From Bombella mellum (GTDB lineage: Bacteria; Pseudomonadota; Alphaproteobacteria; Acetobacterales; Acetobacteraceae), in assembly GCF_014048465.1 (NCBI RefSeq), contig NZ_PDLY01000003.1, positions 186,001 to 250,000 of the forward strand: 64,000 nt of DNA, written 5' to 3'. The notes below the pieces were generated by a model that saw nothing but the letters and a program-made list of their open reading frames with translations, had not been told where the DNA came from and did not search any database. Shown here piece after piece: positions 9,342-47,012 of this stretch. Within the stretch, counting starts at the first letter, position 1. The number at the start of each line of letters is the position of its first letter. The position numbers were made by a program, and so were the translations under genes.

Positions 9342-9416
9342 TGGTGCCGGATGAGAGATTCGAACTCCCGGCCTTCGGTTTACAAAACCGCTGCACTACC
9401 ACTGTGCTAATCCGGC
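9342..9416 (-). tRNA. tRNA-Thr (anticodon UGU)
   Basis: The minus strand folds into a full cloverleaf. The acceptor stem GCCGGAT pairs with ATCCGGC, followed by discriminator A and an encoded CCA (9342-9344). The anticodon loop TTTGTAA carries TGT, and the T-loop is TTCGAAT. It reads ACA threonine codons. Confidence 0.96.
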
Positions 9417-41504: not shown

Positions 41505-44500
41505 TTACTTCCTGTAAGGACCGCCAGCCTGTACCTCGATGCTCAGCATGTGCTGACCTGTGCTGGAGGACGGGGCATCATGCAGGAGCAGCTCTGCCTC
41601 GCCTTTGGTCCAGCGGTGAGGACCGGCCTCGATGACGTCCCAGCCTTCCAGAAGTTTTTCCGTCAGGTGGCGGGTGATGATGTGCTCCTGTCCACCAGCC
41701 CAGACGGAAACCTGTCCGACCAGCATGCCGAGTTCACGACGGTCATCCAGATGCGGACCGACGGCCTCGGAGGGACGGAAGGTCCGGGAGCCGAGAACGA
41801 CCCTGCGGGCATGGGCCGGCAGGGCGAAGAGGTAACGGCCTGCCTCATGACGCTGCGGACGCAGGGTCCGGCCATCATCCAGCCGGATGTAGGGGGCTGG
41901 GTCTGTCGTCATGTCATCGGCTAGCGTCTCGGAGGATGTTTCGGCCTTTGTCAGGCCCAGCTCCTTCGCACGGTCGGCAAAGCTGGTGTGCAGCGGCTTC
42001 ACGAAGTCCTGGGAGACATCAAGCGGTGCCGCAGCATGTTCGTTCCAGTTGAGCTGCTGACGTTCCACCAGACGCATGGCCCCGTCGGTCGAGGAATCAG
42101 GCTGGTAGATGTCCTGCTCATCCGTATCCAGCCAGCTTTCCGTCAGCACGTCATTGGCCCAGATGATGGAGTGAGGCTCCGTCTTCACATGGTAGTAGTC
42201 ATATTCCACCTGACTGTGGTCATACCGGATGGAAGTCCCGTTCACGAGCATACGGACAGGAACAAACTTCCCTTCAAAGTAGAAGCAGTGTTCCGGCGTG
42301 ACGGACAGGTCCTTGTTGGGCAGGCCCTTGCCGAAGGCATCCTTGGCAATGATGACGGACCAGCCAGCCATGTCCTCAGGCTTCGAGCTGTCAACACGGG
42401 CACGACGCTGGATGACGCCGGTGATTTCCCGTGTCTCCTCCCTGCCGTCCACATGGATGCAGACCTGCTCACCCTTGCGCAGACGCTCCACGGCCTTCTC
42501 ACCCTTGGGCGTGCGGATCATGCTGCCAGCAAGGAAGCACTTCTGATAGATCAGGAAGCTGTTGCCCTGTCCGTCATCGCTGAGGACAAAGCCGGTCGGA
42601 TCGTAAGAGCCGGCGAGGCTCATGGACCACGTCTGGCCCTTTTCCGTGACGGTCAGGGTGTTGCCGCTGATGGTGACAGACTTGTTCTGGTCATCATAGG
42701 ACATGCCGTTGAGCTTGATGCGGGCATTGTAGCCCATGGACGTGTTGACCAGCGTGGCACCGGATTCAACGGTCAGGAGGCCGCCAAGATTCTCCCTGTT
42801 CACGCTGCCCGTTGCCCCGGCGATGGTCGCATTGGATACGACACCGCCGGACTGGATGACGGAGGCAGGGGTTGTGGCACGTGTCGTGCCGCTGTCATAG
42901 GTGATGACGCTCTGGATGGCCGTTCCGCCAGAGGAAACGATCAGCTCACTGTTGTTGGAGACCGTTGCGCCGCTGACCCAGCCGCCATTGCCGATTTCGA
43001 TATTCTGGACGGTTGCACCGGGCATCAGCACGCCGGACGCGCCGCTCAGGATGGTCAGTTTGCTGATGAACACGCCGGAAGCAACGGTGGCCTTGGCGGA
43101 AGACAGGAACATGCTGTCGAGTTTGGCTCCGGCACTGATGACGCCCGTTGCCCCGGAGACGGCGGACAGGACCTGCACGCCAGCCCCGCCTGCCGGGATC
43201 TGAAGGGTTGCCCCGCTGAGCATGACGTTCGGCACCGTGGCACCACTGGAGATGGTGATGGAGGCCCCGGAGGCAGCCGTCAGGGAGCTGACGAGACTCT
43301 TGGACCCGATGACGCTCGTGCCGCCGCTCTGGGCATTGAGGGCACTGACAAAGCCGCCGCTGGAGATGACCTGGGTGCCGCCCAGGGCATTGAGCGTGAG
43401 GATGGACGCCCCACTGCCGATGGTATCGACACCGCCGGTAGCGTTGAGGGTTCCGATCGTGCGGTTGATGATGGAAGCCGTGGCACTGCTGCCGATATCC
43501 AGCTCGGTAAGCAGGTTGCCGGAATCGATGGAGACGGAGGCAGGGATGGCCGACGTGCGGCCCCCGCTGACCACCGTGCCCCCGCTGGCCACCACCGTGG
43601 CACCACTGACGAACTGGCCACCGGAAAGGACGGACGCCGCACCGGCACTGACGGTCAGTATGTTGGCGAGAGTACCGCCGTTGGAAATGATGGCCGTACC
43701 AGCATTCTGGATGCTGATGCTGTTCACGACACCACCGCTGCCGATGGTGACCGTACCGCCCACACCGCTGGAACCGGCCATCATGGTGCTGATGGAGGCC
43801 CCTGCTGCCACGACGTTGGCGGTCGTGCCGGCAGCAAACATGCCGCTCGTGACCGAGGCACCGGACATGGCGATGGCCGTACCGGCACTGGCCAGCACAT
43901 AGTCGACCGTGCCGCCGTTATTGATGGTGAAGCGCGAGTTGGGGGAGTTGATGGTGGCACCACCGGTGACGATACCACCGGAGACGCCCCCGGCTCCACC
44001 GTTCATGACGAGATGGTTGACCGTACCCCCGTTGTTGATCTGGATGCTGCCACCGCTGCTGGCGACAAACTCGGACCCTATGGCCCCGGAGGAAAGCTCG
44101 GCATAGCCTTGGCTGGAGGCGGTCAGGCCGGAGACCAGACTGCTTGAGGTGATGAAGGCTGAGCCACCGCTGGTGATGGTGGCATTGCTCACGGTACCGC
44201 CAGAAGTGACGAACTCTGTTCCGCCCTTGACGGTCGGGGAGATGCTGGTGCCCCCGCTGATGATGTCAATACCACCGGAGCTGATGATGGAGCGGAGTGC
44301 CGAGCCGTCTGATCCGACAAGTTCCGTACCGCCATTGAGGATCACGCTGTCGGCAGTCGTGCCCTGACCGTATGAACCGAACTCGGCCTTGTATCCGGCA
44401 TGAAGCCAGCTGACATAGGTACCGCCGATGACATGGAGCAGACCGCCGCTGGCGACCGTGGGAGACTGTGAAGACCCCCCGGAGTTGTACAGTGTCCCGC

Positions 44501-45260
44501 CCAGGATGGTGGCGTTGGAGGAAAGACCGTTGCTGACAACGATCTGGACCGAGGAGCCACCCACGAAGAGCTGGTTGATCGACGTGCCGTTGGAGAAGAC
44601 GGCCTGGCTGCCGAAGATGGTACCGCCCGTACCGACACCACCGTTTCCGACACCATAGAGGCTGCCGGGGTTGAACGTTCCCCCCGACATGAGGCCCCCG
44701 ACCCCGTTGACCTGGAAGCCCTTGATGATGAAGTCGTTTCCGCCGCCGCCCACGAGGGCATAGCCGGCTGAACCGACGACGGGGTTGAGCACGGTACCGA
44801 AGCCGTTCAGGTTCGGGTTGTCGGCACTGACGGCCCCGGCGAAGATGGCCCCGGAGGACCCGACGACGCCGCCGGAAATGACACCGCTGCCCACGGCCTC
44901 GATGGAGGCGTTGTAAAGGGCCGTGGCCCCATACATGCGGCCCCCGTTACCAATGATGGCCAGGGAGCCGCCGTCCACGGCGATGGCGTTGGAGATGACA
45001 TGGTTGTATGCGTAGGCCAGCGAGTAGGCCGTGCTGGTCCCGGTGGCTCCGCTGTTGGCCCCGGTGGAGATGATGTACGTGAAGGGCGAGGCACCACTGA
45101 CGTAGAAGTTCTTGATGTCGATCGAGGTACCCTGACTGTCCGTACTACCCGAAAGGATCTGCGTCCATCTTGCGGGGGCCTGACTGACACCAAGGGAAGT
45201 CAACTTGTCGTATTTGCTGTCGTAGCTGTAGCTTGTATTGCCGAATGTAATGGTGGGCAT
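41505..45260 (-). CDS. Large repetitive surface protein with Hint domain
   Basis: 1251 residues. Residues about 110-880 are tandem beta-helix repeats rich in Gly, Ser, Ala and Thr, of the AIDA / autotransporter strand-loop-strand type (repeating units like SGGTVSNATITSGGSA). A Hint domain (hedgehog/intein type, Hint_2-like) begins at C908 in QKCFLAGSMIRTPKGEKAVE, with PEHCFYFEGKFVPVR about 115 residues later. About 190 residues follow the Hint core. There is no classical signal peptide and no C-terminal autotransporter barrel, so the export route is unknown. Hint cores can cleave before the catalytic Cys, which would free the repeat region. No type I secretion genes are adjacent. Surface role inferred from the repeats. 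Confidence 0.88.
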   Translation of the reverse strand: MPTITFGNTSYSYDSKYDKLTSLGVSQAPARWTQILSGSTDSQGTSIDIKNFYVSGASPFTYIISTGANSGATGTSTAYSLAYAYNHVISNAIAVDGGSLAIIGNGGRMYGATALYNASIEAVGSGVISGGVVGSSGAIFAGAVSADNPNLNGFGTVLNPVVGSAGYALVGGGGNDFIIKGFQVNGVGGLMSGGTFNPGSLYGVGNGGVGTGGTIFGSQAVFSNGTSINQLFVGGSSVQIVVSNGLSSNATILGGTLYNSGGSSQSPTVASGGLLHVIGGTYVSWLHAGYKAEFGSYGQGTTADSVILNGGTELVGSDGSALRSIISSGGIDIISGGTSISPTVKGGTEFVTSGGTVSNATITSGGSAFITSSSLVSGLTASSQGYAELSSGAIGSEFVASSGGSIQINNGGTVNHLVMNGGAGGVSGGIVTGGATINSPNSRFTINNGGTVDYVLASAGTAIAMSGASVTSGMFAAGTTANVVAAGASISTMMAGSSGVGGTVTIGSGGVVNSISIQNAGTAIISNGGTLANILTVSAGAASVLSGGQFVSGATVVASGGTVVSGGRTSAIPASVSIDSGNLLTELDIGSSATASIINRTIGTLNATGGVDTIGSGASILTLNALGGTQVISSGGFVSALNAQSGGTSVIGSKSLVSSLTAASGASITISSGATVPNVMLSGATLQIPAGGAGVQVLSAVSGATGVISAGAKLDSMFLSSAKATVASGVFISKLTILSGASGVLMPGATVQNIEIGNGGWVSGATVSNNSELIVSSGGTAIQSVITYDSGTTRATTPASVIQSGGVVSNATIAGATGSVNRENLGGLLTVESGATLVNTSMGYNARIKLNGMSYDDQNKSVTISGNTLTVTEKGQTWSMSLAGSYDPTGFVLSDDGQGNSFLIYQKCFLAGSMIRTPKGEKAVERLRKGEQVCIHVDGREETREITGVIQRRARVDSSKPEDMAGWSVIIAKDAFGKGLPNKDLSVTPEHCFYFEGKFVPVRMLVNGTSIRYDHSQVEYDYYHVKTEPHSIIWANDVLTESWLDTDEQDIYQPDSSTDGAMRLVERQQLNWNEHAAAPLDVSQDFVKPLHTSFADRAKELGLTKAETSSETLADDMTTDPAPYIRLDDGRTLRPQRHEAGRYLFALPAHARRVVLGSRTFRPSEAVGPHLDDRRELGMLVGQVSVWAGGQEHIITRHLTEKLLEGWDVIEAGPHRWTKGEAELLLHDAPSSSTGQHMLSIEVQAGGPYRK

Positions 45261-45340: not shown

Positions 45341-45883
45341 TCAGGGTGTCTTTTCATGCCGGGACTGGAGGTGACGGATGCAGCTGCCGTCGCTGCCTTC
45401 GTAAAAGCTGAAGAGCAGCACAAGGCCATCCCCCCTGGGGGAGGAAAAGGCAATCCAGCTTTCTTCACCCTCAGCAAGGATCAGGCTGCGGTGTTCCTGC
45501 GGTTCCAGCATGATCGGATGAGGGCCTTCCAGGTCCTCCTGCTGGAAGCTGGTCCGTGATTCCTCAAGGAACACGTCGGGTACATGGTGACGCCCCAGAT
45601 GGTGGGGGTAGCTTGGTATCGTGGAGGTGTCACAATCCAGTGATCCTCCCAGGAAGGCCATGATGGCATGCTGGCCCGCCGGAAAATCCAGCACGTACTG
45701 TCCTTCATGAGGGATGATGCAGAGTTCGGCCTGGTAGCCGTTGCGCCGGTACAGGGTGATGGCCGTCAGTCCGTCCCTGTGGCAGGTCGGGCAGTGGAGG
45801 GGAATGTGCGTCAGGCCGGGACCGGCGGGGGAAAGGAACCATTTCTGGAAAGCCCGCAGGGAGGTGATGTCTCGCTGTGTCAT
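45341..45883 (-). CDS. Unknown protein with CPTC motif
   Basis: 180 residues; family not recognised. A CPTC pair near residue 31 could bind metal. The middle is beta-rich (YQAELCIIPHEGQYVLDFPAG, given here by its landmarks ELCIIPHEGQ and VLDFPAGQHAIMAFLGG), and there is a long polar stretch with several His (STIPSYPHHLGRHHVPD). There is no signal peptide or membrane segment. It lies between the Hint gene (81 bases downstream) and the split tRNA-Arg, on the same strand as both, so it could be functionally tied to the Hint protein, but nothing in the sequence proves it. Confidence 0.7.
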   Translation of the reverse strand: MTQRDITSLRAFQKWFLSPAGPGLTHIPLHCPTCHRDGLTAITLYRRNGYQAELCIIPHEGQYVLDFPAGQHAIMAFLGGSLDCDTSTIPSYPHHLGRHHVPDVFLEESRTSFQQEDLEGPHPIMLEPQEHRSLILAEGEESWIAFSSPRGDGLVLLFSFYEGSDGSCIRHLQSRHEKTP

Positions 45884-45967: not shown

Positions 45968-46280
45968 TGGTGTCCGCGGGGGGATTCGAACCCTCGACCC
46001 CAGGATTCATACCACTTCGGCTTTCGCCGCCCGGCCTCGTGATGAGGCCCGTTCGTGGTCTGGACTGTCTCTTCACCACGGGGCCGAAGCCCCGCCACGG
46101 TGTCGCCCGTACAGTCTCTACACCTTCCGGCCCGCTGGGAGGGGCTGGCTTGGCTCGGGATTGGCATGGCCCGGAGGGCGTTAGCGTTCCCCGACTTTGA
46201 GCGAATTCACCGGGCGGTTTGCCATCCCGGTGCCCAATTATTTAGGAATCCTGTGCTCTATCCTGCTGAGCTACGCGGAC
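45968..46280 (-). tRNA. tRNA-Arg (anticodon CCU), interrupted by a group I intron
   Basis: The two exons are 46280-46244 and 46007-45968. Joined, they form a cloverleaf with acceptor GTCCGCG/CGCGGAC, D-arm GCTC...GAGC, anticodon stem CAGGA/TCCTG, loop TTCCTAA (anticodon CCT), T-loop TTCGAAT, discriminator A and encoded CCA at 45968-45970. The intron sits directly after the third anticodon base. The T-stem GAGGG/CCCCC has one A-C mismatch at its second pair. It reads the rare AGG arginine codon. Confidence 0.95.
46008..46243 (-). ncRNA. Group I self-splicing intron in tRNA-Arg(CCU)
   Basis: 236 nt on the minus strand, ending in the expected terminal G. The internal guide GGG lies nine bases into the intron and can pair with the exon end CCU, with the conserved U-G wobble at the 5' splice site, giving a short P1. 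A 7-bp P2 (CACCGGG/CCCGGTG) follows. The core motifs are clear: CCAATCCCGAGCCAAGCC (P/Q region), GGTGTAGAGACTGTACGG and GAAGAGACAGTCC (P7/P3 region), with GACTGT/ACAGTC forming P7. These match the subgroup IC3 tRNA introns known from Azoarcus and from tRNA-Arg(CCU) of Agrobacterium. No homing endonuclease is encoded. Confidence 0.93.
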
Positions 46281-46319: not shown

Positions 46320-46472
46320 GCCTGCTCTCCCACCATGCCCCTTGGCCTGTGTGGACGGGCAGGATATGTAGGGAGCAGTTCTGATCTGTTCTGACAGTTG
46401 ATGCTTCCACCCCTGCCATGCTGGAAGCCTTGTTCAAGACCGGCCCTGGCACGGCCTTCTGCAGGTTTGCCC

Positions 46473-47012
46473 ATGTTCTTTTCGTCATCGTATCCGGTAC
46501 CCCGTCTGTCCGCTTTCCTGGGGGGGCTGCGTCGCCCCGTGGTCCTGTCCCTGATGGCAGTGGTGGCTGTCGGGGGACTATCTGGCTGTGGTGGCGGAAA
46601 GCGCAATCCTTCCTCGCTGACCCTGCCCCGCAATCACCTGCTGGGTGTGGACCGTGGCGCACAGGGGGGGGATGACCAGCTCCGTGGTGGGGTGAACGCC
46701 TATCTCTGGCGTGGGGCGATCGACACGCTGTCCTTCATGCCCATGGCCTCGGCCGATGCGCAGGGAGGTGTCATCCTGACGGACTGGTACCAGCCTTCCG
46801 GCTCGCAGGATGAACGTTTCAAGATCGCCGCCTATATCCTGGACCGCCGCCTGCGGTCTGATGCCATCCGGCTCAGCGTCTTCCGCCAGACCCGCACCAA
46901 TGGTGGGGAGTGGCAGGATACGCCGGCCGCCTCCAACACGGCGGCGGACATCACCTCCCGCATCCTGGAGCGTGCCCGCCAGCTGCGGGCCGAGAATGGC
47001 GGCGGAAAATAA
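46473..47012 (+). CDS. DUF3576-family lipoprotein
   Basis: 179 residues from the ATG at 46473; the frame runs open upstream to 46398 but the lipoprotein signal starts here. Hydrophobic VVLSLMAVVAVGGLSGC gives a lipobox Cys near residue 39. The mature domain, LGVDRGAQGGDDQLRGGVNAYLWR ... TLSFMPMASADAQGGVILTDWY (landmarks VNAYLWRGAIDTLSFMP and GGVILTDWY), is the DUF3576 signature common next to leuS-lptE in Alphaproteobacteria. It is presumed to act at the outer membrane; the family function is unknown. It lies 9 bases before leuS and heads a leuS-lptE-holA operon. Confidence 0.9.
   Translation: MFFSSSYPVPRLSAFLGGLRRPVVLSLMAVVAVGGLSGCGGGKRNPSSLTLPRNHLLGVDRGAQGGDDQLRGGVNAYLWRGAIDTLSFMPMASADAQGGVILTDWYQPSGSQDERFKIAAYILDRRLRSDAIRLSVFRQTRTNGGEWQDTPAASNTAADITSRILERARQLRAENGGGK

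Follow-up and report, generated by a model that had tools for sequence, protein, structure and literature searches.

Group I introns in the tRNA-Arg(CCU) genes of Alphaproteobacteria have been described from Agrobacterium and Bartonella (Paquin et al. 1999, as cited in PMC7717549). For acetic acid bacteria, a footnote to Table 1 of PMC4596401 marks a tRNA-Arg gene split by a group I intron homologue in Asaia, Acetobacter, Gluconobacter, Komagataeibacter and Gluconacetobacter; the footnote gives no anticodon, and Granulibacter is unmarked there. Two GAAA/11-nt contacts are listed for the Azoarcus ribozyme in Table 1 of PMC3494683, joining loop 24-27 with 146-151/160-164 and loop 189-192 with 60-65/80-84.

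Here, a 64,000-nt stretch of the Bombella mellum genome (contig NZ_PDLY01000003.1, in the following called the window) was analyzed; all coordinates refer to this stretch. We are highly confident that the only tRNA-Arg(CCU) gene of this Bombella species contains a tRNA-borne, IC3-like group I intron, that this intron is most likely self-splicing, and that, within its part of the Acetobacteraceae, it has been passed down along with its tRNA locus next to leuS. Structure and conservation were computed here; the splicing reaction, and whether it needs a helper, are inferred. The gene resembles the split tRNA-Arg genes of the acetic acid bacteria in belonging to the same family and in sharing its site with the Gluconobacter, Acetobacter and Asaia copies; it differs in its genus and in the CAAA loop L2 and the A or G in P8 found in Bombella. 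With the Agrobacterium and Bartonella family it has the tRNA in common, and 39 Bartonella rows of our intron tree share site and guide, but the introns fall into separate clades of that tree.

On the minus strand, the 5' half of the tRNA ends with CAGGAUUCCU at 46244 and the 3' half starts with AAUCCUGGGG at 46007, so that 236 nt (46243..46008) interrupt the gene directly behind anticodon base 36. This insertion point directly after the anticodon is that of the alphaproteobacterial tRNA-Arg(CCU) introns. Excision of the 236 nt yields a tRNA of 77 nt that includes an encoded CCA and is called tRNA-Arg(cct) by ARAGORN; when introns of up to 300 nt were allowed, the program also called tRNA-Arg(cct) with an intron (38,236) in the unspliced stretch. 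Thus, sequence and ARAGORN agree with a first-pass annotation that had placed the tRNA halves 236 nt apart and had read a CCU anticodon after removal. Using default settings, ARAGORN called no tRNA at the split locus, and an Rfam scan of the whole window at the gathering score returned tRNA-Thr (9416..9345) as the sole tRNA and missed the split tRNA-Arg. Because both searches miss the split gene, the genome would appear to be devoid of a tRNA-Arg(CCU); naming the intron fills this gap. The features of the locus are listed in Table 1.

Table 1. Features of the split tRNA-Arg(CCU) gene and helices of its intron; rows and pairs refer to the alignment of 18 distinct introns.
Feature	Position	Strand	Evidence or variation
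tRNA-Arg(CCU) 5' half, last bases are the anticodon CCU (positions 34-36)	46244..46280	minus	sequence and ARAGORN
tRNA-Arg(CCU) 3' half, CCA encoded	45968..46007	minus	sequence and ARAGORN
Group I intron, 236 nt, last base G	46008..46243	minus	Rfam match, covariation, ARAGORN
P1: exon CCU and guide GGG, with U.G as splice-site pair; lengthened here by AA/UU	46233..46246	minus	constant in 18/18
P10 strand AUU, partner 3' exon AAU (46007..46005)	46236..46238	minus	96.3% of cells paired; 2/18 rows with one unpaired position; hardly varies
P2 hairpin, CAAA loop (GAAA outside the genus)	46208..46232	minus	both-side changes in 6/7 pairs
P3: 46204..46199 with 46108..46103	46103..46204	minus	both-side changes in 3/6 pairs
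P4: 46194..46189 with 46160..46155, around P5 and P5a	46155..46194	minus	P4 constant; both-side changes in 2/2 (P5) and 4/4 (P5a) pairs
P6 and base of P6a	46122..46154	minus	P6 constant; both-side changes in 1/2 pairs of P6a
P7, guanosine-binding helix: 46116..46112 with 46067..46063	46063..46116	minus	constant in 18 rows
P8 hairpin; CACC is followed by G here and by T outside the genus	46074..46102	minus	both-side changes in 3/4 basal pairs
P9, P9a, P9b (GAAA loop)	46011..46059	minus	both-side changes in 2/5, 6/6 and 4/4 pairs

A local search with the Rfam group I model RF00028 (Intron_gpI), the check proposed along with the first-pass annotation, gave a full-length alignment at 46256..46048 of the minus strand with 29.5 bits and an E-value of 9.6e-6 for a 451-base search. 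A full-length match was therefore found, but at a score below the gathering score of 50 bits, and for this reason a default Rfam scan of the window misses the intron. Among 100 relatives, 24 were matched by RF00028, four of them above the cut-off, and of these four only the match in genome G049 is located at the tRNA-Arg(CCU) site; the small number of passing matches indicates that the cut-off is strict for this intron group. This search of the relatives, run with stricter filters, missed the window's own intron and those of genomes G001 and G007, which were recovered by a home-built model. The folding energy of the whole pre-tRNA (z = -1.92) is weak evidence by itself. Matches to RAGATH-28, a plastid 3' UTR, tmRNA and lncRNA at or near the same place were all below their cut-offs and were rejected.

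The 24 matching relatives provided 26 loci, of which 18 have the tRNA-Arg(CCU) site as judged by the exon pattern and the remaining eight lie elsewhere or have a different exon; together with the window, and after removal of one duplicate from these 19, 18 distinct introns were aligned. For the 54 proposed pairs from P2 to P9, 96.8% of 962 cells contained standard pairs, as compared to 31-42% when the partners were slid by one to three columns, and both-side changes occurred in 31 of the 54 pairs. The top of the P8 hairpin (P8b) aligned poorly and was left out of this count. The covariation score was 0.357 as compared to a shuffled mean of 0.158, and none of 500 shuffles reached any observed value, although relatedness of the sequences may by itself lift values above such shuffles, and the structure had been modelled with the window's own sequence as template. 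P1, P4, P6 and P7 are constant in the 18 introns, and covariation is therefore no test of them. The core from P3 to P9 is conserved together with its P3/P7 pseudoknot, in which P3 covaries and P7 never varies.

The single elements named in the first-pass annotation could largely be found again. P1, described as CCU/GGG with a U.G pair, keeps this U.G at the 5' splice site in all 18 introns, and among 146 distinct introns the guide region is ATTGGGC in 131 cases and ACTGGGC in 15. In the window, P2 is present as described, and so are the core CCAATCCCGAGCCAAGCC and the terminal G; for the relatives, the terminal G was built into the extraction pattern. The helix P7 exists as well, but the six pairs GACTGT/ACAGTC had to be shortened: relatives have U, G or A as the sixth base, opposite an A that is invariant, and P7 is better read as the 5 bp GACUG/CAGUC. 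Taken together, Rfam match, covariation and ARAGORN bear out that tRNA-Arg(CCU) contains a group I intron of the type found in tRNAs (IC3-like). The IC3 label presumably applies, given a likeness to the Azoarcus and tRNA-Leu introns; the Azoarcus tRNA-Ile (IC3) ribozyme has the same helix order and a three-base guide ending in U.G. Furthermore, position 46111, the base following the 5' strand of P7, and the J8/7 base 46070 covary in a manner other than Watson-Crick pairing (of 146 distinct introns, 59 have G/G, 47 T/A and 40 A/A, without exception); judged from this coupling, the two bases may take part in a tertiary contact within the core.

The splicing route proposed here is the established group I mechanism. 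The transcript would fold, and a guanosine bound in P7 would attack after the CCU anticodon, the U36 of which would form a U.G pair with the guide GGG in P1. In the second step, the 5' exon, now free, would attack behind the terminal G while P10 keeps the 3' exon AAU in place, and the joined tRNA would subsequently be matured. Self-splicing is supported because the helices covary, P1 and P10 are kept, the tRNA is intact after removal of the intron, and no other CCU tRNA was found. Against it, the L2 loop and the P8 base, both constant elsewhere, are changed in the genus, and this might weaken folding.

This change was followed through 146 distinct tRNA-Arg(CCU) introns. In 135 of them, L2 is GAAA (closed by G-C or A-U) and a T follows the CACC-like strand of P8; ten, all from the window's genus (two of these are labelled only Acetobacteraceae bacterium), have CAAA in L2 and G (six) or A (four) as the P8 base; and one, from Bartonella tamiae, has an ambiguous L2 loop and T in P8. 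Of 109 named loci, 104 yielded an intron by the extraction used here and five were lost to a cut at the locus end or to a variant exon or core; these five, including Saccharibacter sp. EH611, as well as locus L026, show GAAA and T. Judging by their numbering, we take the two Azoarcus contacts to be L2-P8 (the first) and L9-P5 (the second). Most relatives are like the Azoarcus ribozyme in having GAAA in both L2 and P9b, whereas the Bombella intron, which also sits in a different tRNA, has CAAA in L2. The sequence pattern suggests an altered L2-P8 contact in the genus, and its restriction to one branch indicates one event. That docking was lost or re-specified on the branch to Bombella (GAAA to CAAA, receptor U to A/G), so that the tRNA gene would now rely on a ribozyme whose natural loop-receptor pair is new or absent, a protein possibly acting as substitute, is a serious possibility that we hold to be somewhat short of probable. 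The joint change seems to be unreported; among open-licence papers, none on Bombella with a group I intron was found. It would provide a natural case for the evolution of tertiary contacts in ribozymes, though on a single branch.

The same change speaks for the alternative that the Bombella intron, with a weakened L2-P8 contact, splices only in the presence of a protein helper, since it affects all ten distinct introns of the genus; moreover, protein co-factors are required in vitro by some group I introns according to PMC7717549. However, the other docking loop, the GAAA of P9b, is retained by the window's intron and is seen in 17 of 18 rows (locus L017 has GCAA), and we consider obligate help by a protein unlikely, self-splicing remaining the preferred reading.

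The distribution of the intron was determined with a core covariance model built here and run on 249 sampled genomes of the family Acetobacteraceae. The model matched 115 genomes, and a pattern of 5' exon plus core matched 89, all of them within the 115. An empty tRNA-Arg(CCU) site (up to two mismatches) was found in 71 genomes, an occupied together with an empty site in none of the 249, and 73 genomes matched none of core model, exon-intron pattern and empty site. Of the 26 genomes with a model match outside the exon-intron pattern, ten have an empty CCU site, and their intron is therefore probably located in another gene; in genome G024, the halves read as tRNA-Leu. One genus (g108) is mixed, with an occupied site in one genome (G270) and empty sites in three (G117, G188, G234), indicating that gain or loss continues; the title of Paquin et al. 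1999, as cited in PMC7717549, agrees with this. These counts extend the known patchy distribution of the intron family. A strict exon-intron pattern, which misses variants such as L026 and the 26 model-matched family genomes, was present in 3 of 142 genomes of a class-wide sample, including B. mellum itself and one more of the family.

A scan of named genomes returned 109 stretches with the exon-P1 pattern, from Bombella, Parasaccharibacter, Saccharibacter, Gluconobacter, Acetobacter, Asaia, Acidomonas, Commensalibacter and Bartonella and, in addition, from several Rhodobacterales, Azospirillum, Skermanella, Roseospirillum and others. The length of 145 distinct introns free of N ranged from 216 to 278 nt, and none of the distinct introns collected contained an ORF of more than 88 aa; since the collection pattern allowed 170-420 nt, a small endonuclease-free form is the norm within these limits. 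The novelty that the first-pass annotation had seen in the host and in the tiny endonuclease-free form therefore has to be withdrawn: the site is occupied in the 89 family genomes, split tRNA-Arg genes are published for five acetic acid genera, and 236 nt is mid-range. The Bombella intron is genuine, but it is an ordinary representative of an intron family already known.

Related introns were also seen in other alphaproteobacterial tRNA genes, identified by their halves: tRNA-Leu-like genes (L003, L004, L019 and probably L023), probably tRNA-Thr(GGU) in L012 and probably tRNA-Lys in L024. Locus L026, outside the family, is a tRNA-Arg(CCU) with different exon letters, and genome G034 contains two introns.

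In a tree of 103 distinct introns, whose bootstrap had not settled and whose deep branches are weak, the window's intron stands beside that of Bombella dulcis (90% identity, support 100/85). The ten introns of the genus form one clade (100/96), joined by Saccharibacter floricola (99/89) and then Gluconobacter (99/95); the intron thus clusters with other tRNA-Arg(CCU) introns, and the tree groups by genus. In the window, the tRNA lies beside the gene leuS. Among the 109 named 8-kb loci, 37 contain this gene, every one of them labelled Acetobacteraceae; where it is lacking, the 8-kb cut may be the cause. A recent horizontal arrival in the species would fit the patchiness within the family and the coexistence of occupied and empty sites inside genus g108, but we rejected it as very improbable: the intron is carried by all 11 genomes of the window's genus, the introns of the genus form a single clade next to Saccharibacter, and leuS as neighbour is common to relatives. 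Inheritance with the tRNA locus is the reading we retain.

The genome of B. mellum (11 contigs, 100% estimated completeness) yielded 51 RF00005 matches, namely the tRNA-Thr of the window and 50 others, all 50 of which were named by ARAGORN. Their arginine anticodons are UCU, ACG (two) and CCG, and a second tRNA-Arg(CCU) was absent among these 50. The empty-site pattern had no match in the genome and the home-built intron model had one; from all three results, no tRNA-Arg(CCU) other than the split gene was found, as the first-pass annotation had supposed. Its further statement that this is the only tRNA for AGG was too strong, as a tRNA-Arg(UCU) gene is also present. A tRNA-Arg(UCU) may read AGG through wobble. 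AGG accounts for 5 of 67 arginine codons in leuS and for 4 of 36 in the ORF at 41505-45260. That the intron is a remnant which no longer splices, leaving a dead tRNA and AGG to tRNA-Arg(UCU), could draw on the low Rfam score, the existence of that second gene and the altered L2 and P8 of the genus, but is extremely improbable, given that both halves still form a standard tRNA, the helices are paired with compensatory changes, the split gene is kept in all 11 genomes of the genus and leuS uses AGG.

Two further ORFs were noted on the minus strand. The ORF at 41505-45260 encodes a repetitive protein of 1251 aa, the C-terminal part of which (CFLAGSMIRTPKGEKAVERL) presumably resembles Hint-type domains of large adhesin-like proteins. 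The ORF at 45341-45883 (180 aa) adjoins the tRNA and has matches in 10 of the 109 named loci, all from the window's genus; with identities of 32-54%, far below those of leuS or of the ORF at 46398-47012, it is, by this comparison, fast-evolving.
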